Below are positions 5,608 to 32,334 of a stretch of DNA of 39,355 nucleotides, piece by piece. The stretch comes from Acidithrix ferrooxidans. GTDB taxonomy: Bacteria > Actinomycetota > Acidimicrobiia > Acidimicrobiales > Acidimicrobiaceae. Position 1 is the stretch's first letter. Every line of letters begins with the position of its first letter. The stretch spans positions 1 to 39,355 of the forward strand of contig NZ_JXYS01000068.1 of the NCBI RefSeq assembly GCF_000949295.1, given 5' to 3'. The notes beneath the pieces are model-generated. The model ran no database searches, was not told the origin of the DNA, and worked only from the letters and a program-made list of their open reading frames with translations. The translations under genes were made by a program, and so were the position numbers.

Positions 5608-6458
5608 ATACCTTCAATATCCAAAGACTAACCTTAGGCGTCAGAGTTGCCAAAGCTCAATCTGTCCTGGTTCGAATGACCATAGTTCAAGAGAGTGAGC
5701 CATGCCCTAAGCGACAAACCTATACCCGCAATGACCCCTTGGACTAGTTGGCCCTACCAATTGGAAGAACGAGTAGAAACTAGACTTGGCAAGAGTTAGA
5801 TTTACCCTGGACCCACCGAAAATTTAGCCGATCAACTTTGATTTTGGCATAGAAAAGGTGCTCTGAACTGGTAGAATGATGTTTGAAGACACTTCAAATC
5901 TATCAGTTTAAGGAGCACCTTTTAGATGCGAGCATCTGCTAGTGCTTTAGAGTGTTTGATAGTCACCTTTGACGATTCGAACGCAGTTTCCAACAGTGGG
6001 TTGATACTTCCTATCACCCTTGCTGAGAGACTTGGCCTTAGGGATCTCTTTGATTTACACATTGACCTAGAGGATCGTCCTGGACGAGCAAATGTTGGCA
6101 GAAGAGCTATGGCTATCGTCGCATCTATTTTGGCCGGTGGTGATTGCATTGATGACACTGCAATCCTTGAAAGCCCAAATGCGCAAGTGATTCTTGGTCA
6201 GATAATGCCAGCACCTTCTGCTCTTGGTGTCTTCTTGCGTAGTTTTGAGACCAGTGACATCGCAGATGTTGAACGAGTTGCAGCTTTGTTGCTAAAACGA
6301 GCATGGCTAGCTGGAGTAGGTCCAGGTGATGAGTCACTCACCATTGATGTTGATTCCACAATATGTCAGGTATATGGAAACAAAAAAGAAGGAGCTTACT
6401 TTGGTTATACCAAAGTAAGGGGGTATCACCCACTAGTAGCAGCTGTTGGTAAAACAGG

Positions 6459-6860
6459 CCACCTTCCAGCCATCGAGATCTGCCGCAAGAATCCCATGTT
6501 CTCGGAGGTAGGTGCCAAGTTCGAGCTCGGTCATGGATTCGGTTCTAACAACAATCTCGTACTTTGCCTTGAACGAGAGCGTAAGCGACGGATTCGCAGA
6601 TGCGGAGAACTTGCCAATGTCACCAGTTTGCTTCAGTGACGCGTTCTGGGTGTAGAGCGTATTGAGTGGAATTCCTTCAGCATTAGAAAGCTCGGTAATA
6701 GCACCCTCTGGAGCGTTTCCACCATCGCCTAGCTCTAAGAGCTTCCTCAGCACTCGTTCCTTTTGTTCTCTTGGGTATACCTTTTTCATGACTCCTCTAT
6801 CCTCGCCCTATATATGACTGTAGTAGATTTTCCGGCACGGACTCTGAGGGCTGGGGGTAC
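6459..6860 (-). pseudogene. Foreign transposase-like fragment inside IS1380 copy 1
   Basis: On the minus strand an ATG at 6789 opens MKKVYPREQKERVLRKLLEL, then an acidic loop and a helix-turn-helix-like stretch ITELSNAEGIPLNTLY. KAKYEIVVRTESMTELELGT and REHGILAADLDGWK follow, and the frame then runs into IS1380 sequence at 6458. The layout resembles the DNA-binding N-terminal (OrfA-like) part of a transposase; I cannot name the IS family with confidence. It is cut at the junction, so only the first 100 or so codons remain. Bases 6790-6860 would be its upstream end. Confidence 0.6.
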
Positions 6861-7138
6861 GAAGAACAAAGCCTACTCCCTTGACACCTAAGGTCAGAGT
6901 CAAGCCTACTCCAGGGTCTCAGCTGGCACTATTTAGTGATTATGACTATCACGCATTTATAACCGATCGACAAGGCGAAACGCTTTTTCTTGAGGCTGAT
7001 CACCGAGCACATGCCCAGATCGAACTAGTCATCAAGGATCTCAAAGGAGGTTCGGGATGGAATCATGTTCCATCTGGATACATGATCGCTAATGCCGTCT
7101 GGTTAGCTCTGGTTTGGTTAGTTATTTGTGCAACTGCA

Positions 7139-7262
7139 CACAACCTGGCACGGTGCAATTGCAGACAATCTGGCACGGTGCAATTGCAGACAATCTGGCA
7201 CGGTGCAATTGCAGACAATCTGGCGCGGTGCAATTGCACGCAACCTGGCACGGTTCACTGCA
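7139..7262 (+). repeat. 25-bp tandem array, five units, in IS1380 copy 1
   Basis: Units start at 7139, 7164, 7189, 7214 and 7239 (the last is 24 bp and diverged). The unit core is CTGGCACGGTGCAATTGCA; units 2-4 differ by one base at most. The array lies in the transposase codons for His-Asn-Leu-Ala-Arg, which normally occur once. Each unit carries the palindrome TGCAATTGCA. Because 25 is not a multiple of three, every added unit shifts the frame; the array has no stop in any forward frame. Confidence 0.95.
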
Positions 7263-7715
7263 CGAATAGGTGCTATTGCAGAAACTGTTATCACCACACC
7301 AAAGCTTCGACGGTGTTACTTTCAGATCGCAGGACATATCACTCGTTCAGCTAGAAAAGTGAAACTGCATCTTGAAGAATACTGGCCCTATAGGGATAAG
7401 TTCTTAGAGGCTCTTGATCGGATCAGAAAGTTTGAGATCGCCATCACCTGAACATCTGGTTACCTAACACACTGAATATTACTTGAAGGAACTGCTCTAG
7501 AAGACAAGGGATTAGGTCACTATACCCAAAATGAGATTTCACAATCTCAAAAATGACCAAAAAGGCTCAACCACAAAGGAAATAGGTCATATTTGGCACT
7601 CTGAAACCAGATTTAAGCCATAGACCCTCCGTCAAACCTAAATCAGTTCCAAAAAACCGACTTGAAGTCACACCGAGGGGCTCAAGCTGGTCCATTTCCG
7701 TGGATTCAGGATTAG

Positions 7716-9550: not shown

Positions 9551-9579
9551 TTGACAACTCTAGTGGCGTCTGCTATGCT
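9551..9579 (+). promoter_or_regulatory. Near-consensus sigma70-type promoter in IS1634 end
   Basis: A TTGACA at 9551-9556 and TATGCT at 9574-9579 are separated by exactly 17 bp. The site faces the IS1634 transposase remnant and, beyond it, IS1380 copy 2. It is among the best promoter matches in the window. Because the TTG at 9551 belongs to the -35 box, a coding start there is unlikely. Confidence 0.6.
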
Positions 9580-9604
9580 ATCTCGCCTGGCCCGTCGCGG
9601 TAGA

Positions 9605-9958
9605 GGGGTTCATGTACATACGACTCGTCGCAACTACAAGGACAAGGTCTATGAGACCCATCTCCTTCGAAGGTCTTATCGCGAAGATGGTAAGGTCAAG
9701 AATGAGACCTTGGCCAATCTCTGCCATCTTTCTTCTGTAACGATTGAACTTATTCGTGAATCATTAGCTGGTAAAAGCCACGTGGTAGCAGGAGAGGAAT
9801 TTGAGATAGAGAGATCTCTATTTCATGGCCATGTTGGGGCAATAGCTGCAATGGCCAACAAGTTGAAGCTTGCATCTCTATTGAGTCCAGAATCCAAAGA
9901 GCGAGATATCATCCTCGCACTTGTAATAGCAAGAGCGACAAGTCCTTCTTCTAAGCTT
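9605..9958 (+). pseudogene. IS1634-family transposase N-terminus, interrupted
   Basis: The frame gives VHVHTTRRNYKDKVYETHLL, RRSYREDGKVKNETLANLCH, then GEEFEIERSLFHGHVGAIAA and RDIILALVIARATSPSSKL. These are the well-known opening blocks of IS1634-type transposases (IS4-like DDE group), ahead of the catalytic core. Similarity ends at SSKL, exactly where IS1380 copy 2 begins; the frame runs on for ten codons of IS1380 sequence and stops at 9989-9991. No IS1634 sequence follows the right end of IS1380 copy 2, so the remaining three quarters were deleted. No good start codon lies downstream of the promoter; the start may be mutated. Confidence 0.8.
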
Positions 9959-10075
9959 GGATTCACCGAAAATTTAGCCGCTCAACTTTGATTTAGACAT
10001 AGAAAGGGTGCTCTGAACGCGTGGAATGATGTTTGAATACAATTCAAATCTATCAGCTCAAGGAGCACCTTTTAG

Positions 10076-11485
10076 ATGCGAGCATCTGCTAGTGCTTTAG
10101 AGTGTTTGATAGTCACCTTTGACGATTCGAACGCAGTTTCCAACAGTGGGTTAATACTCCCTATCACCCTTGCTGAGAGACTTGGCCTTAGGGATCTCTT
10201 TGATTCTCACATTGACCTAGAGGATCGTCCTGGACGAGCAAATGTTGGCAGAAAAGCTATGGCTATCGTCGCATCTATTTTGGCCGGTGGTGATTGCATT
10301 GATGACACTGCAATCCTTCGAAGCCCAAATGCACAAGTTATCCTTGGTCAGATAATGCCAGCACCATCCACTCTTGGTGTCTTCTTGCGTAGTTTTGAGA
10401 CCAGTGACATCGCAGATGTTGAACGAGTTGCAGCTTTGTTGCTAAAACGAGCATGGCTAGCTGGAGCAGGTCCAGGTGATGAGCCGCTCACCATTGATGT
10501 TGATTCCACAATATGTCAGGTATATGGAAACAAAAAAGAAGGAGCTTACTTTGGTTATACCAAAGTAAGGGGGTATCACCCGCTAGTAGCAGCAGTTGGT
10601 AAAACAGGTGACATTCTTGGAATAGTGACACGTGAAGGCAACGCCAATACCGCTCGTGGTGCCGGGGAGTTTGTAACTCAGGTAATCAACAATGCCAGAG
10701 CCGCTGGAGCAACTGGTGAAATAACCATGCGTTTTGACTCTGGGTTCTTCTCAAGAGCCGTAAGAGACGCAGCTAGTGCGGGCGATGTTCGCATTTGCAT
10801 TACAACACGGATGTCAAAACGATTGAAGCAGGTTATTGCAGCCATACCAGAAGAAACATGGACTTCAGTTCCTTATTGGCTTGAAGGTGGAGCTGATGTA
10901 GCAGAAGTGAAATACCGTCAAAAACAGTAAATATTGCGCATTTGCAAGAGATAGACAAGACGTTCGTCTTATCGTAGGAAGAACAAAGCCTACTCCAGGG
11001 TCTCAGCTGGCACTATTTAGTGACTATGACTATCACGCATTTATTACCGATCGACAAGGCGAAACGCTTTTCCTTGAGGCTGATCACCGAGCACATGCCC
11101 AGATCGAACTAGTCATCAAGGATCTCAAAGGAGGTTCTAGATGGAATCATGTTCCATCTAGATACATGAACGCTAATGCCGTTTGGTTGGCTCTGGTCTG
11201 GTTAGCCATTGGTGCAATTGCACACAACCTGGCACGGTGCAATTGCACACAATCTGACACGGTGCAATTGCACACAATCTGACACGGTGCAACTGCACAA
11301 ATAGGTGCTATTGCAGAAACTGTAATAACCACACCAAAGCTTCGACGGTGTTACTTTCAGATCGCAGGACATATCACTCGTTCAGCTAGAAAAGTAATAC
11401 TCCATCTTGAAGAACACTGGCACTATAAGGATAAGTTCTTAGAGGCTCTTGATCGGATCAGAAAGTTTGAGATCGCCATCACCTG
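10076..11485 (+). pseudogene. IS1380-family transposase, copy 2, frameshifted
   Basis: The first 284 codons include LTIDVDSTICQVYGNKKEGA (first catalytic Asp), KVRGYHPLVAAVGKTG, RGAGEFVTQVINNARAAGAT, TMRFDSGFFSRAV (second Asp) and PYWLEGGADVAEVKYR. A stop follows at 10928-10930, just after an A5 run (10920-10924). One base further the frame continues: KYCAFARDRQDVRLIVGRTK, PTPGSQLALFSDYDYHAF and EADHRAHAQIELVIKDLKGG. A second break comes from the 25-bp array at 11223-11297, after which the C-terminus (TARIGAIAETVITT-like to KFEIAIT) resumes and ends at 11485. Both catalytic Asp blocks are intact. One slip at the A-run and a change in repeat number would restore about 460 codons, the normal size for the family. 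Confidence 0.85.
11223..11297 (+). repeat. 25-bp tandem array, three units, in IS1380 copy 2
   Basis: Units begin at 11223, 11248 and 11273. A further half unit (GGTGCAATTGCA, 11211-11222) lies before them. They occupy the same codon position as the five-unit array at 7139-7262. Here most units carry the complete 12-bp palindrome GTGCAATTGCAC. Confidence 0.95.
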
Positions 11486-11784: not shown

Positions 11785-12459
11785 CTACTTCTTAGATGGC
11801 TGATAAAAAGGATTTAGCCCTGAAAGGTGATCCGTTACATCTACAATCTGCTTAATGGATGGAAGGGCATCCTTTATTGCCACTTCAATACCTTGAGAAA
11901 GAGTGACTGAAGCCATTCCACACCCTTGGCAACCACCTGAAAGGCGCAAATACGCTATCTCGCCATTTACGCCAACCAGGTCAGCTCGACCACCATGGCT
12001 TGCAATTGCCGGGTTAATTTCATCCTGTAAAATTGCAATAATAGCACGAGCATCGTCGGAGTCTAGAGTTGCATCCGCAAACCCCTCTGGAGCGGGCGCC
12101 GTGGACGTAGGGGAGTTAGGGGAGTTAGGGTTGACTATCACCAAACCGCCATCTTCGCCAACTTCCATACGGCTCCCGCGCAAGCTTGCGATGCTCTTCG
12201 AAGGAATCACCACTGTTATCCCTGGTGCTATCTCCTCTATCGCATCATTGCGGTCAGCGTCTGAAATCGCTTGAAAATAGACGTCGTAATTGTAAGTAGA
12301 ACCATTGGTACCTGCAATTTCAACCCACAATGCAAGTAAACTTGGATCAGCCTCCTCGGCTGCAACGGATGCAACTAGTTCCTGAGCCTCAGGTGTCAGA
12401 TCCAAAACCATCTCGTCCACGGATTTCCCGCCTTTTTGTAAAAAACTAAACTTTTTCAT
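11785..12459 (-). CDS. Nfu-type Fe-S cluster carrier with degenerate A-type domain
   Basis: The 224-residue protein has two domains. Residues 18-110 (LTPEAQELVASVAAEEADPS, IPSKSIASLRGSRMEV) look like an A-type (IscA/HesB) domain without its three cysteines, as in E. coli NfuA. A Pro/Ser/Thr linker with an NSPNSP repeat (about 110-125) follows. The C-terminal Nfu domain (about 135-212) carries LRLSGGCQGCGMASVTLSQG with the cluster-binding Cys177 and Cys180. Such proteins receive a 4Fe-4S cluster from the SUF/ISC machinery and pass it to enzymes such as radical SAM proteins or aconitase. AAGAGGA just before the ATG at 12459 supports the start. The gene diverges from the ATP-grasp/radical SAM pair, whose radical SAM member needs a 4Fe-4S cluster. 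Confidence 0.88.
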   Translation of the reverse strand: MKKFSFLQKGGKSVDEMVLDLTPEAQELVASVAAEEADPSLLALWVEIAGTNGSTYNYDVYFQAISDADRNDAIEEIAPGITVVIPSKSIASLRGSRMEVGEDGGLVIVNPNSPNSPTSTAPAPEGFADATLDSDDARAIIAILQDEINPAIASHGGRADLVGVNGEIAYLRLSGGCQGCGMASVTLSQGIEVAIKDALPSIKQIVDVTDHLSGLNPFYQPSKK

Positions 12460-12707: not shown

Positions 12708-13943
12708 ATGGAAAGACTAATGATTATCATGCCCGCAAATACATACCGGGCCCAACGATTCATCACGGCAGCAATCGAGTTGGGCGTTGAGGTGACAGTC
12801 GCCACAGATAGTGACTTCTCGCCACCAGATCCTACCAAGAACGTTATAGACGGTATATCCTTCTGCGATCCCAAAAGTGCAGGCAGAGCCCTTGGAGAGA
12901 TAGCGATTGAAAAAGGAATAAAGAAAGCTATCGCGATCGACGAGGGAGGTGTGGAGGTTGCAGCTTGGACTCAGGCTACTATTTCCAACCTTTCATCACC
13001 ACCAATTGGAACCCTAGTCTCCAGAGACAAGGCAAATCTCCGTAAAACCTTGACTGCAGCCGGAGTCCCCCAGCCAACCATGCACCAAGTGATCAAAGGT
13101 GAACAATTAGAGCAATTTAGCGAAAATGATTTTCCGCTCATTGTAAAACCCTCCAAAGGATCTGGTTCGATTGGAGTCGTTCGAGCAGACAACCTCAAAG
13201 AACTCAAAGAGGCCCTTGAAATTACAGATCTAGTCATCTCAGAGATGGCCCTTAACGATCAGGTAACGCTTATTGAGAGTTATATTGGCGGCACAGAATT
13301 TGCCGTCGAACTCCTAGTCGTCGAAGGTAAAGTTCACGTTCTCGCAATCTTTGAAAAGCCTGATCCCCTAGAGGGCCCCTACTTCGAAGAAACGATATAC
13401 ATCACCCCACCAAGAATCTCAAAATCAGACTACGAAGCTATAGTCGCCAGCATGGATCTGTGTATAAAAGCACTCGACATATCGAATGGCCCGATGCACA
13501 TAGAAGTTCGCGTCCGACCCGACGGAGTGGTATTTCCAATCGATATCGCTACGCGGTCGATCGGTGGAAACTGTTCCGACGTCCTAAACTTCGATGGCAT
13601 GGTATCGCTCGAGACACTGATCATCTCAAACGCGCTCAATTTAGAGATGCCAAATATCTCCAGAGAAAAACAAGCCTCCGGCGTCTATATGATTCCCGTG
13701 GATGATCGAGGTTACCTAAGGGAGATCTCTGGCCTTCATGATGCCGAAAGAGTTGGATTTATTGAGTCAATCTCCATTACCGCAGCGATTGGAAACCATT
13801 ACCGCCCTGTACCCTATGATAATAAATATCTGGGGTTTATCTTCGCAAAAGCACCAACCTCCGCATTGGTCGAAGCGGCACTTCGAAAGGCAAGAAAACG
13901 ATTAAATATCGTCTATTCACCTTCTAAGTCTGAGCTTGTGTAG
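12708..13943 (+). CDS. ATP-grasp ligase paired with a radical SAM protein
   Basis: From ATG 12708 the product is 411 residues. An N-terminal pre-ATP-grasp region (MERLMIIMPANTYRAQRFIT) is followed by the ATP-grasp fold: NLRKTLTAAGVPQPTM, FPLIVKPSKGSGSIGVV (nucleotide-binding Lys and Gly-rich loop), EFAVELLVVEGKVHVLAIFE, then HIEVRVRPDGVVFPIDIATR and SIGGNCSD, holding the Mg/ATP-binding acidic and Arg residues. ATP-grasp enzymes activate a carboxylate as acyl phosphate and join it to an amine, thiol or similar group. The fold is nearest the carboxylase/CPSase-large type, but the substrate is unknown. The frame is open back to a TTG at 12609, but those codons look unlike protein and lie beside a possible -35 TTGACA (12595). 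The radical SAM gene starts 96 bp downstream, suggesting joint expression. Confidence 0.85.
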   Translation: MERLMIIMPANTYRAQRFITAAIELGVEVTVATDSDFSPPDPTKNVIDGISFCDPKSAGRALGEIAIEKGIKKAIAIDEGGVEVAAWTQATISNLSSPPIGTLVSRDKANLRKTLTAAGVPQPTMHQVIKGEQLEQFSENDFPLIVKPSKGSGSIGVVRADNLKELKEALEITDLVISEMALNDQVTLIESYIGGTEFAVELLVVEGKVHVLAIFEKPDPLEGPYFEETIYITPPRISKSDYEAIVASMDLCIKALDISNGPMHIEVRVRPDGVVFPIDIATRSIGGNCSDVLNFDGMVSLETLIISNALNLEMPNISREKQASGVYMIPVDDRGYLREISGLHDAERVGFIESISITAAIGNHYRPVPYDNKYLGFIFAKAPTSALVEAALRKARKRLNIVYSPSKSELV

Positions 13944-14039
13944 TCTGGGTACCACTCAATTAGCAGAAGCGATCCCCTAGGATATCAACCAAGCTCTTTC
14001 GACGACAAAAACCACCACAACTCTTACCGAGGCTTTGAA

Positions 14040-15458
14040 TTGAATATATTAATCGCAAGCACATATGAACTTGGACATCAACCATTCTCAAGTCTCTACC
14101 TAGAAAGTCAGCTACGAAAGCAGGGGTGGAATTGTCAAATTTTAGATACCTCCCAATACGAGAACTCTCCAGCGATCTTATCTGGCATGCTCAGCAATTT
14201 CGATGCACTTTTGATTTCAGTACCTATGCATACAGCCTCTTCTTTGGCACTTGAGCTCGTTGAGACGATCACGGAGCGATTTTCCAACCTCCCAATTGGC
14301 CTCTTTGGCCTTTACGCCTCATCGCTTGAGCACCTCAGCCTTCCAGCATCAATTAGCCTCCTCGCAAGCGGCGAGATCGCAGACGAAGTGACCCAATGGA
14401 TAACCGAAATTGAAGCAAACTCCCAAATATCAAGAGTTGTAATTAGAAAAAACCGCTCATCCAACCCAAATGCAAATGAGCTTCGACTGGATCGAAGACT
14501 AGTTGGACCTTTGGAAAATTACACGAAACTGGTCCACAAGGAAAAGACCATTGCCGTCGGCTACACCGAAACTACAAGGGGTTGCATGCATCAGTGCCGC
14601 CACTGTCCTGTACCGGTCGTATACGAGGGAAAGATTCGAATATTTGAACGCGGTGGCGTCTTGACGGATATCGATGACCTCGTAGCCATGGGTGCGCAGC
14701 ACATAACCTTTGGAGACCCCGACTTTTTCAATGCACCAATTCATGCTATGAAAATCGTTGCCGAGATGCACAAAAACCACCCTCAGCTAACTTTCGATGC
14801 GACGATCAAGGTGGAGCACCTTCTGAAGTATGAGACGCTTATAAAACAACTCAAAGAGTTTGGATGTCTCTTCGTGGTAAGCGCTTTTGAACACGTTTCG
14901 TCGTCGGTGCTTGAAAAGTTCCAAAAGGGCCACGATAGGCACGACATGGTAAGAGCCCTAGAAATCTGTCGACTTAACGGAATCGAAATTCGACCCTCCC
15001 TCCTACCATTCACTCCATGGACTACGCCTAGCGATCTAATGGAGCTCTTCGAATTCGTAGTAGAAAACGACCTCATAGACAATATTGATCCTGTACAGTT
15101 TGCCATACGACTTTTAGTACCAGAGGGGTCGCTCTTGCTAGGCGACGAAGAAGATCAAAATAGATTCAAACCTTCCAAAGATAATCCACTTACGCTAGTA
15201 TGGGAATCACCTGATCCAAAGCTCGACGAGCTGGCAAGGATCTTTAGTGATATCGCTGCAGGTTCAATCGACTCGAAGGATCCAGCCATATCGAAGTTTG
15301 ATCTCATGTATCAGACAGCTGGTAATATGCTAGGTCTCCCAATTCGCTACTCAAATTGCACATCATCTACAAACCGCGAGGTGCCACGACTCAGTGAATC
15401 CTGGTTTTGCTGCGCCGAACCTACTCAAGGGATGTTGGCAAAGACAAAGGCCCAGTGA
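14040..15458 (+). CDS. Radical SAM protein with CCAEP C-terminal tail
   Basis: The 472-residue protein has a Rossmann-like N-terminal region (1-150) like the B12-binding part of class B radical SAM enzymes, but without the DxHxxG cobalt-ligand motif. The radical SAM barrel starts with TTRGCMHQCRHCPVP; Cys182, Cys186 and Cys189 form CxxxCxxC for the 4Fe-4S cluster that cleaves S-adenosylmethionine. ITFGDPDFF and DATIKVEHLL are typical barrel strands. The C-terminus ends SWFCCAEPTQG with adjacent Cys457-Cys458. From memory, databases hold a family defined by this tail, 'CUAEP/CCAEP-tail radical SAM (seleno)protein', where relatives carry selenocysteine; here both are TGC Cys codons. The start is TTG at 14040, preceded by GAGG. 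The ATP-grasp gene lies just upstream. Substrate unknown. Confidence 0.88.
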   Translation: MNILIASTYELGHQPFSSLYLESQLRKQGWNCQILDTSQYENSPAILSGMLSNFDALLISVPMHTASSLALELVETITERFSNLPIGLFGLYASSLEHLSLPASISLLASGEIADEVTQWITEIEANSQISRVVIRKNRSSNPNANELRLDRRLVGPLENYTKLVHKEKTIAVGYTETTRGCMHQCRHCPVPVVYEGKIRIFERGGVLTDIDDLVAMGAQHITFGDPDFFNAPIHAMKIVAEMHKNHPQLTFDATIKVEHLLKYETLIKQLKEFGCLFVVSAFEHVSSSVLEKFQKGHDRHDMVRALEICRLNGIEIRPSLLPFTPWTTPSDLMELFEFVVENDLIDNIDPVQFAIRLLVPEGSLLLGDEEDQNRFKPSKDNPLTLVWESPDPKLDELARIFSDIAAGSIDSKDPAISKFDLMYQTAGNMLGLPIRYSNCTSSTNREVPRLSESWFCCAEPTQGMLAKTKAQ

Positions 15459-30193: not shown

Positions 30194-30913
30194 ATGATAG
30201 AAATGCAAAACGCCGCTTCAAAACTCAAAAGTACGCTCCATCTAAATGTAGAACCTATCGGAATAAGTTTTTCAGATAGGGTCGATCCATCGCAGGAGTT
30301 CTTCGACATTGAGATGCCACTGCCCACAGAAGATGGACGCACCGGCAGAGTCGCCGCTGGATGTGTATTTTGGATGCACGCGGTGGAAAGGCGTTTCGCA
30401 ACAGTTGCAGCCGACCATGCAAACTGCTCGGTCGGCTCTTTTACCCATGGTTTCTTGGAACTATCCGTGGCTGCAACAAAATCAGATGTCGGTGCTCTAG
30501 TAACTTCGGGCTGGGTCAGTGAATCTGACTTCGGCACCATAGAGCACGTTACAACCCAACCCGCACAGGTAATCTACGAGCCGCTCTCCTCTTCAAGCTC
30601 CGTTCCTGATGTCGTTTTTCTGCGATTGAATGCGCGCTCTGCAATGATCTTTAGAGACGCATTTCCAACCGCTAGGATCGAGGGAAAACCCCAATGTCAT
30701 ATCGTGGCTATCGCCAAAGAGCTAGGGGAGATAGCGCTATCGTTTGGATGCATGCTTTCGCGAACCCGAACCTCGATGCCATCTTCGGAGATGACCGCCG
30801 CCATTCCTGGGCCATTACTACAAGAGGCACTGGATCGGCTCGAAGAGACAGCGTCGATCGATCGAAACGTGGCCAACTATGCATCGATTGATTCAAAACG
30901 ATTTGCGAATTAG
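30194..30913 (+). CDS. DUF169-family protein
   Basis: The 239-residue protein matches DUF169: LNVEPIGISFSDRV near residue 20, AAGCVFWMHAVERRFATVAA (about 54-73) and DHANCSVGSFTHGF (about 74-87), with conserved Cys residues in the GC and NCS motifs. Later blocks VVFLRLNARSAMIF and ALSFGC (second NCS-like Cys) also fit. The family's biochemical role is not established; conserved Cys/His suggest metal or cofactor binding. The gene lies 41 bp before the UbiB-type kinase gene in the same direction, so they are likely cotranscribed. Confidence 0.82.
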   Translation: MIEMQNAASKLKSTLHLNVEPIGISFSDRVDPSQEFFDIEMPLPTEDGRTGRVAAGCVFWMHAVERRFATVAADHANCSVGSFTHGFLELSVAATKSDVGALVTSGWVSESDFGTIEHVTTQPAQVIYEPLSSSSSVPDVVFLRLNARSAMIFRDAFPTARIEGKPQCHIVAIAKELGEIALSFGCMLSRTRTSMPSSEMTAAIPGPLLQEALDRLEETASIDRNVANYASIDSKRFAN

Positions 30914-30954
30914 CAGATAATGAAAGTCTCCTCTAGCAAGATCATCTCAAATCG

Positions 30955-32334
30955 ATGAAGCCTCCTTTGAACTCATCACGGATACGACGTCTAAGCAAGC
31001 TCGTCAATATGGGTTCAAAGGTTGCAGGCCGAACAATCGCTGAAAAGGCTTTAGCTACCTTTAATGCACACGAGCCTGGTGTGCCAATCGACAGGTCTCG
31101 ACAGATAACAACTATCAATGATGTGGCAAAAGAGCTAGGTTCGATGAGAGGCGTTATGACCAAATTCGGTCAAATGCTAAGCTACGTATCAACCCCAATT
31201 CCTCTCGAGCTACGTTCACCATTTAGCTCACTCCAAGACAGCGTCCCGCCGATGTCAAAGGAGTTGGTAGACGAGATTATACGACAGGAACTTGGAGATG
31301 GTCCCGATGGCGTATTTGCAATTTGGGATCCAGAGCCAATTGCCGCTGCTTCAATTGGGCAAGTTCATCGTGCCGTTACATCAGATGGAGCAGCCGTCGC
31401 AGTAAAGATTCAATATCCCGGAATCAAAAATACCATTACCGCAGACCTATCAAATCTCCGCCTCATAGCAAAGGGGCTAAAATTGGGATATCCATCGATG
31501 GACACCGATTCGATGATAGACGAAATCGCGGATCGCATCTTAGAAGAGCTTGACTACAAGGCCGAAGCCACCAATCAAAGAAAATTCGCTAACTTCTTTG
31601 AGGGCCACCCAACAATAGTCATACCGAGAGTTATTGCAGACTATTCAACCGAAAAATTACTCACTACCGAACTTGGAGAAGGGGTCAGCTTTTCAAAATT
31701 CCAAGAATACGACCAAGAGGCCAAGGATCTGGCCAGTGAAACAATATTTCGATTTGTCTTTAGAAGTTTATATCAACTTAGGTCATTCAACGGAGATCCC
31801 CATCCTGGCAACTACCTCTTTGGAGAAGATGGCCGAGTCACTTTTTTAGATTTCGGATTGACCAAACACTTCGGAAAGCAAGAGATCGAGATCTTTGAAC
31901 ATCTGATTATTGCAATGGTAATCGACAAGGATCCAGTGGCTTTTAGCGCATCGATCAAATCGGCTGGATTGCTCTCTGAATCGTGCGACCTTGATGTCGA
32001 GCAAATCTATGACCATTTTGTCCCATTTTATGAGTCGGTTATGGACAACAACAAATTCGCCTTCAACGAGGACTACACATCACGCCTCTTCGCCCATACC
32101 TTCAACCAGAAGGCACCGATCGCCAAGTACCTAAATGTATCGCCATCGTTCGTGGTCATTCAAAGAATCAATCTGGGTCTCTATTCAATCCTTGCCGCCC
32201 TCTCTGCTGAAATGAATTTCCGAGGTATAGCCGGCGAAATTTGGCCATTCACGAAGACGCCGCCATCAACTGACATGGGAGCAAGAGAAGTAAATTGGCT
32301 CAAAAACCTCGATGAAGGTACCGCGAAGCAGTAA
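30955..32334 (+). CDS. ABC1/UbiB-family atypical kinase
   Basis: The 459-residue protein has the ABC1/ADCK/UbiB signature: KFGQ in MRGVMTKFGQMLSYVS (res. 70-73, the KxGQ inhibitory motif), Ala-rich nucleotide loop PIAAASIGQVHRAV (130-140), VAVKIQYPG with Lys151, EELDYKAEATNQRKF, RSFNGDPHPGNYLF (catalytic loop) and TFLDFGLTKHF (DFG-type metal ligand). Family members bind ATP and support ubiquinone or menaquinone synthesis and lipid balance in bacteria; the mechanism is not fully settled. There is no C-terminal membrane segment. It overlaps no neighbour; the DUF169 gene is directly upstream. The ATG at 30955 is a reasonable start. Confidence 0.9.
   Translation: MKPPLNSSRIRRLSKLVNMGSKVAGRTIAEKALATFNAHEPGVPIDRSRQITTINDVAKELGSMRGVMTKFGQMLSYVSTPIPLELRSPFSSLQDSVPPMSKELVDEIIRQELGDGPDGVFAIWDPEPIAAASIGQVHRAVTSDGAAVAVKIQYPGIKNTITADLSNLRLIAKGLKLGYPSMDTDSMIDEIADRILEELDYKAEATNQRKFANFFEGHPTIVIPRVIADYSTEKLLTTELGEGVSFSKFQEYDQEAKDLASETIFRFVFRSLYQLRSFNGDPHPGNYLFGEDGRVTFLDFGLTKHFGKQEIEIFEHLIIAMVIDKDPVAFSASIKSAGLLSESCDLDVEQIYDHFVPFYESVMDNNKFAFNEDYTSRLFAHTFNQKAPIAKYLNVSPSFVVIQRINLGLYSILAALSAEMNFRGIAGEIWPFTKTPPSTDMGAREVNWLKNLDEGTAKQ

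Follow-up and report, generated by a model that had tools for sequence, protein, structure and literature searches.

The nearest relative with a described reaction of the radical S-adenosylmethionine (SAM) protein considered here is ArsL, which transfers the aminocarboxypropyl group of SAM to arsenic, according to Galvan et al. (2021; PMC8552651); a 2025 review (PMC12159101) credits Yao et al. (2024) for this reaction. The protein is encoded in a 39,355-nucleotide stretch of Acidithrix ferrooxidans (contig NZ_JXYS01000068.1, positions 1 to 39,355; hereafter the window), next to a gene for an ATP-grasp ligase. An initial annotation, made from the DNA letters alone, had described the two as an uncharacterised biosynthetic pair, adjacent and co-directional, and this description stands: both open reading frames (ORFs) are intact, carry the motifs that had been quoted and lie 96 bp apart on the forward strand, the ATP-grasp gene at 12708-13943 (411 aa, ATG start) and the radical SAM gene at 14040-15458 (472 aa, TTG start), and the pair is both conserved and functionally unassigned.

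The Pfam match of the radical SAM gene product is Radical_SAM, and its top match in NCBIfam is NF040546, the CUAEP/CCAEP-tail radical SAM (seleno)protein family (residues 3-465, E-value 1.5e-139, 465.7 bits). The initial annotation had pointed to a named radical SAM family that includes selenoproteins; the family is the one that matches best, although the score of the window's protein falls below its curated cut-off of 500 bits. The match exceeds this cut-off in 12 of 98 related genomes, that of the window included, and a search of 14 control genomes recovered unrelated radical SAM proteins in 7 of them, none above the cut-off. The similarity to the family is full-length and extends to the tail and the radical SAM motif, with Cys and selenocysteine (Sec) versions; its name, on the other hand, implies neither a function, nor an ATP-grasp partner, nor a context of iron-sulfur (Fe-S) genes. 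The second NCBIfam match is to NF040542 (ArsL, arsinothricin), at 248.5 bits against a cut-off of 450, and a search for NF040542 in 148 genomes of the class gave 36 matches at an E-value of 1e-60, none above the cut-off. ArsL of Pseudomonas amygdali and two proteins with an RCCLKC tail share 28-33% identity with the window's protein over most of its length, and all three terminate in CCLKC, that is, likewise in a Cys-Cys tail. They differ from it in the tail motif itself (RCCLKC versus WFCCAEP) and in their ars operon context.

AlphaFold models of the two enzymes are confident (mean pLDDT 92.7 and 93.7). The N-terminal half of the radical SAM protein, preceding the radical SAM core, is predicted in its model to resemble a B12-binding domain, and structural comparison with VIA-align places AprD4 nearest (Z 25.7, root-mean-square deviation 3.7, 402 residues aligned), followed by MgmA (Z 24.1, 3.3, 350), OxsB (Z 23.8, 3.8, 423) and TsrM (Z 23.6, 3.5, 398). 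The ATP-grasp protein matches ATP-grasp_4 (PF13535, 113.2 bits) and LAL_C2 (PF18603, 48.1 bits), both above cut-off, and the L-amino acid ligase BL00235 (PDB 3vot; TM 0.81, about 26% identity) is its closest solved relative in sequence as well as in fold. In fold and domain make-up it thus resembles BL00235, BacD and RizA. Unlike these enzymes, the ligases studied here make up a distinct family in which conservation is tight (mean column identity 53%), the partner is a radical SAM protein and Cys289 in an RSIGGxC loop is invariant; Lys147, Glu266 and Arg283 are also invariant across 35 aligned rows. The protein scores far below every NCBIfam cut-off, so no other fixed partner is known for it; such a partner would have spoken against the initial annotation.

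An ATP-grasp gene also accompanies ArsL-like genes: in two RCCLKC operons, from Priestia and Alicyclobacillus, it occurs with arsinothricin-resistance genes (positions 1686-2909 of locus L198 and 436-1668 of locus L199). This hints that arsinothricin-containing peptides may be made there. Those ATP-grasp proteins share 23-29% identity with the present ligases and, judged by sequence, are distant homologues and a parallel in design, not orthologues. In the open PubMed Central literature, the matches listed dealt with radical SAM only, without mention of CCAEP or CUAEP, and none of those listed combined arsinothricin with ATP-grasp; the RCCLKC tail had no match there. Selenoprotein, radical SAM and ATP-grasp were not found together in that literature, nothing in it linked radical SAM, selenoprotein and Acidimicrobi-, and combinations of Fe-S, radical SAM, ATP-grasp, NfuA, selenocysteine and gene neighbourhood gave a single review, in which ATP-grasp does not appear.

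Linkage of the ATP-grasp and radical SAM genes

We scanned a collection of GTDB-species genomes for relatives of the radical SAM protein. A single-protein query against the genome contigs confirmed no relative; a 23-row alignment succeeded and gave at least 545, of which the best 80 loci (L062-L141) are the basis of the locus counts below. According to their record titles, these loci come from Actinomycetota, Chloroflexota, Nitrospirota, Nitrospinota, Gemmatimonadota, Acidobacteriota, Latescibacterota, Bacteroidota/Ignavibacteria, Planctomycetota, KSB1 and Poribacteria. In 52 of the 80, an ATP-grasp gene is found no more than 4 kb from the radical SAM gene: 40 have it upstream and on the same strand, 9 downstream and 3 on the other strand. 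The adjacency across distant phyla that the initial annotation had proposed to look for, Sec-containing homologues included, is therefore borne out. Among the 28 loci with no ATP-grasp gene nearby, the radical SAM gene is within 2.5 kb of the locus end in 12. When the genomes of such loci were searched, the ATP-grasp gene was located elsewhere in 24 of 27, three of these 24 (G102, G105 and G117) having it in fragments only, and was not detected in the other three, which are draft genomes; one further locus, L127, where the start of the contig cuts the ATP-grasp gene, was counted neither among the 52 nor among the 27.

The two genes also co-occur at the level of whole genomes. Of the 98 related genomes, 56 have both genes, 40 have neither, one has only the radical SAM gene (G005, 65% complete) and one only the ATP-grasp gene. 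The association is strong both here (Fisher p 3e-25) and in 56 genomes from other families of the order (p 2e-13), with shared ancestry ignored in both tests. In these counts, 64 of the 98 genomes had some NF040546 match and 57 were taken as having a family member (at least 90 bits, full or partial, plus a tail fragment in G006), weak hits on radical SAM proteins of other kinds and the matches of 114 and 97 bits in G059 being dropped; the ATP-grasp search gave a match in 59 of the 98 genomes at an E-value of 1e-30, of which those in G055 (186 bits) and G059 (139 bits) were set aside as weak. Recurrence in distant phyla with varied order, together with co-occurrence in genomes, is more than chance: the ATP-grasp and radical SAM genes are a genetically linked unit that is real, old and near-obligate. 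Because the linkage stays while the gene order varies, we consider the link between the two to be functional.

A Cys-Cys or, very probably, Cys-Sec tail

The tail of the window's protein, SWFCCAEPTQG, is present as initially annotated, except that it is not the very end of the protein, as eight more residues follow. The WFCCAEP codons, with Cys457-Cys458, are at 15402-15422 on the forward strand. The corresponding motif, W[FY]C[C/U][AS]xP, is found in all 80 loci, which were selected without regard to the tail, and its second residue is Cys in 48 and an in-frame UGA in 32. Across 59 aligned relatives, the tail pair and the three cysteines of the CxxxCxxC motif (Cys182, Cys186 and Cys189; codons at 14583-14606, forward strand) are the sole invariant cysteines. 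On account of this invariance, the Cys-Cys or Cys-Sec tail is probably catalytic or substrate-carrying.

The UGA in the tail of these 32 relatives very probably encodes Sec, since it is followed by a covarying hairpin resembling a selenocysteine insertion sequence (SECIS). We based the case for this hairpin on covariation and on a comparison of groups, not on single folds. In 33 UGA forms (the 32 plus one from Thermomicrobium roseum), the UGA is followed after 12 bases by a stem of 7 bp whose loop is of AGUU type. Its cells are paired in 89.2% of cases, with 31 two-sided changes against 9.2 in shuffles, and its covariation score of 0.473 exceeds both the 0.212 of shuffles and the maximum of 0.162 among slid versions, the stem having been taken from the fold of one UGA-form sequence, which biases the comparison with the slid controls in its favour. 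In the Cys forms (34 of 48), the same columns are 47% paired, not above slid versions. The folding z-score has a median of -1.15 in the 33 UGA forms versus +0.29 in the 48 Cys forms (p 4e-8, with mononucleotide shuffles and relatedness ignored). Taken one by one, six Sec-tail regions folded against dinucleotide shuffles were unconvincing (z -1.97 to +0.40). SelB, part of the Sec machinery, was found above cut-off in 22 of 25 Sec-tail genomes (sampled from 32) versus 12 of 25 Cys-tail genomes (sampled from 48), one of these 12 only by summing neighbouring matches. On a quick 59-row tree, Sec and Cys were exchanged at least 10 times, a count made on the real labels alone. The window's protein is itself the Cys version of a selenoprotein-containing family. 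On the megaplasmid of Thermomicrobium roseum DSM 5159 (L196:8935-10386), the annotated CUAEP/CCAEP-tail protein stops at an in-frame UGA; AEP and the hairpin follow this UGA, so that what is very probably a selenoprotein is annotated as truncated.

Iron-sulfur genes and other neighbours

The initial annotation had noted a divergent Nfu-type gene about 250 bp away. It lies at 11785-12459 on the reverse strand, 248 bp from the start of the ATP-grasp gene, and encodes an NfuA-type Fe-S carrier with a degenerate A-type N-terminal half and a NifU C-terminal domain; the only other NifU-domain gene of the genome is a short one at a different place. Of the 80 loci, 44 have an NfuA-type gene close to the pair, and several carry further genes of Fe-S metabolism. 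In L116 (Ignavibacteriales), a single row holds genes of SufB/D type, cysteine-desulfurase type, NifU_N, FeS_assembly_P, A-type Fe-S_biosyn, radical SAM, Nfu, a dehydrogenase and ATP-grasp. In L107 (Bacteroidetes), the radical SAM gene follows a row of similar SUF-type genes, of which only the cysteine desulfurase type was itself scanned, and in L067 the order is radical SAM, Nfu, FeS_assembly_P. Genes of YggX type (Fe2+ trafficking) occur in 6 of the 80 loci. Seven related Chloroflexota loci have genes for lipoyl synthase and pyruvate dehydrogenase E1 after the pair, each scanned in one member. An early clustering had also placed a cysteine desulfurase in five loci, of which three (L098, L107 and L116) remained in the later count.

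Genomes in which the two genes of the pair are apart show which of them the Nfu gene accompanies. Of the 24 genomes with a separate ATP-grasp gene, 19 were sampled, which gave 20 ATP-grasp loci; L163, a second copy beside its own radical SAM gene in G114, was excluded. In 13 of these 19 genomes the Nfu gene lies no more than 160 bp from the ATP-grasp gene, and in 3 it lies no more than 2 kb from the radical SAM gene (Fisher p 0.003), a count that includes short contigs (L103 stops 488 bp past the radical SAM gene and L117 starts 1019 bp before it). In L174, a CDGSH/Fer4_19 protein adjoins the split ATP-grasp and Nfu genes. Nfu thus tracks the ATP-grasp gene and not the radical SAM gene, which points to a link with the ligase or its product. 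A pure donor of the radical SAM cluster would be expected to travel with the radical SAM gene, and the supply role that had initially been offered for Nfu is accordingly not what this pattern favours. Separately, G114 (Actinomycetota; L117, L163, L166) has two radical SAM and two ATP-grasp genes, with an Nfu gene beside each ATP-grasp gene.

The physical link of the pair to Fe-S genes is new here, and both this wider context and the kinship with ArsL go beyond the initial annotation. The NifU-domain Nfu neighbour resembles SUF/NfuA assembly, as do the SUF-type genes that share a row with the pair in L116 and, in part, in L107 and L067. No SUF or Nfu system is known to include a radical SAM protein or an ATP-grasp ligase, and none was found in the open PubMed Central literature.

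A DUF169 gene at 30194-30913 on the forward strand, about 15 kb from the pair, may be an accessory member. It is followed by an ABC1/UbiB-like kinase gene, the two spanning 30194-32334 in the window. Homologues of the DUF169 gene stand beside the pair in 17 of the 80 loci, at most 6 kb from the radical SAM gene, and in the 98 related genomes they are present in 31 of 57 that are positive for the radical SAM gene versus 6 of 41 that are negative; a table entry for DUF169 in the open PubMed Central literature assigns it no function. The window also contains transposase pieces at 5926-7354 and 9551-10930 (DDE_Tnp_1_4 at 5926-6639; IS1380-type at 6881-7354 and 10076-10930), and has no Rfam match and no tRNA. 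We also considered that the product of the pair might be a thiol that replaces mycothiol, in which case MshC would be expected to be absent from genomes with the pair. This idea is unsupported, because an MshC-type match (E-value 1e-60) is present in 97 of the 98 related genomes irrespective of the pair. None of these matches is above the cut-off of 485, the best being about 370-450 bits in most genomes and lower, possibly CysS, in a few; MshC-like proteins below the mycothiol cut-off are thus found almost throughout the relatives of the window's genome.

A candidate pathway and its alternatives

The co-occurrence of the pair and its Fe-S neighbours suggests a small-molecule pathway serving iron-sulfur handling. 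As a tentative reading, which we prefer while regarding it as quite possibly wrong, we propose that the two enzymes make a small molecule, derived from an amino acid, which acts alongside the NfuA-type carrier in the handling of Fe-S clusters or iron. The radical SAM protein would carry a [4Fe-4S] cluster at Cys182, Cys186 and Cys189. Because ArsL is its nearest described relative, we place a carbon-heteroatom bond-forming step before peptide ligation: the enzyme would cleave SAM and make the new bond in the manner of ArsL, while the C-terminal Cys457-Cys458 (or Cys-Sec) would deliver the accepting soft atom to the active site, a role that in ArsL the RCCLKC tail may play for arsenite. The ATP-grasp ligase would then activate a carboxylate as acyl phosphate and couple the new amino acid to another, and the peptide-like product, working with Nfu, may serve iron or Fe-S clusters as a ligand or a helper. 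Several observations weigh against this proposal. No Nfu gene is nearby in 36 of the 80 loci, many loci have no Fe-S gene except Nfu, and a cysteine desulfurase gene is found in just three (L098, L107 and L116). The radical SAM gene is present with no ATP-grasp gene detected in three draft genomes of the 27 searched, and G092 has the ATP-grasp gene with no radical SAM gene, a second search there being also negative. Finally, similarity to ArsL does not fix the reaction of the radical SAM protein, and its nearest folds, AprD4, MgmA, OxsB and TsrM, perform other chemistry.

A different course for the same two enzymes is one in which a 5'-deoxyadenosyl radical alters an amino acid or peptide at a C-H bond, the tail acts as a redox relay (a disulfide or selenenylsulfide passing an electron or hydrogen atom) and the ATP-grasp enzyme ligates the product. 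AprD4 and B12-type enzymes, which are among the nearest folds, use this radical, and the repeated exchange of Sec and Cys suits a redox residue. Such chemistry is that of most radical SAM enzymes (PMC8552651), whereas ArsL works otherwise and likewise has a Cys-Cys tail. We regard this canonical course as doubtful, and yet give it not much less weight than the ArsL-like route. The Fe-S genes could, on another account, be nearby only to build or rebuild the radical SAM cluster, with the product a specialised small molecule unrelated to Fe-S handling. Radical SAM enzymes do require Fe-S assembly, and in L107 and L116 the radical SAM gene is itself within the SUF row. The preference of Nfu for the ATP-grasp gene in the split genomes (13 of 19, against 3 of 19 for the radical SAM gene) and the YggX-type genes beside two split ATP-grasp genes tell against it, as the ATP-grasp enzyme should itself need no cluster; we hold this account to be unlikely.

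The same close linkage of ATP-grasp with Nfu would fit a ligase that attaches the modified amino acid to a protein, for instance Nfu, instead of making a free peptide, and some ATP-grasp ligases (RimK) do target proteins. The closest family and fold are nonetheless those of free L-amino acid ligases, and the loci with no Nfu nearby, where it may lie elsewhere in the genome, add to the reasons for considering protein modification improbable. An organoarsenical product, for example an arsinothricin peptide, is very improbable, despite the kinship with ArsL and the ATP-grasp genes beside arsinothricin-resistance genes in Priestia and Alicyclobacillus. The tail differs from RCCLKC, the chromosomal setting is conserved in the window's family, and, with one or two queries per gene at an E-value of 1e-8, none of 140 loci shows ArsB, ArsC, ArsH, ArsM, ArsQ or ArsN1, ArsR and ArsI being found only in L084. 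Distant or remote ars genes would escape this check, which covered loci of 3 to 21 kb, and the sets of 120 and 140 loci include some contigs twice (e.g., L058 is L062). Equally hard to credit is the idea of a RiPP system, where a ribosomal precursor peptide would be the substrate of the two enzymes. Radical SAM and ATP-grasp enzymes are known in pathways of this kind, but 613 small intergenic ORFs of 15-80 aa, collected up to 2 kb from the genes in 77 of the 80 loci, include none common to more than four loci, and the four that share one are close Chloroflexota relatives. The remark in the initial annotation that no precursor peptide is found nearby can thus be extended to the family.

Returning to the proposed pathway in Fe-S or iron handling, its most specific form would be a widespread and so far unrecognised branch of Fe-S biogenesis in which the radical SAM (seleno)enzyme and the ligase make an aminocarboxypropyl-derived dipeptide ligand that passes iron or Fe-S to or from NfuA, which in such detail we consider rather unlikely to be right. 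The linkage itself gives a functionally unassigned radical SAM (seleno)protein family a near-obligate partner and a biological context, and opens its chemistry to direct tests. Should the product prove to be a ligand of iron or of Fe-S clusters, a dedicated small molecule would be added to a core process that is credited to proteins and common thiols. If the tail acts as in ArsL, the family would define a type of radical SAM enzyme in which a soft atom is presented by a Cys/Sec pair at the C-terminus.

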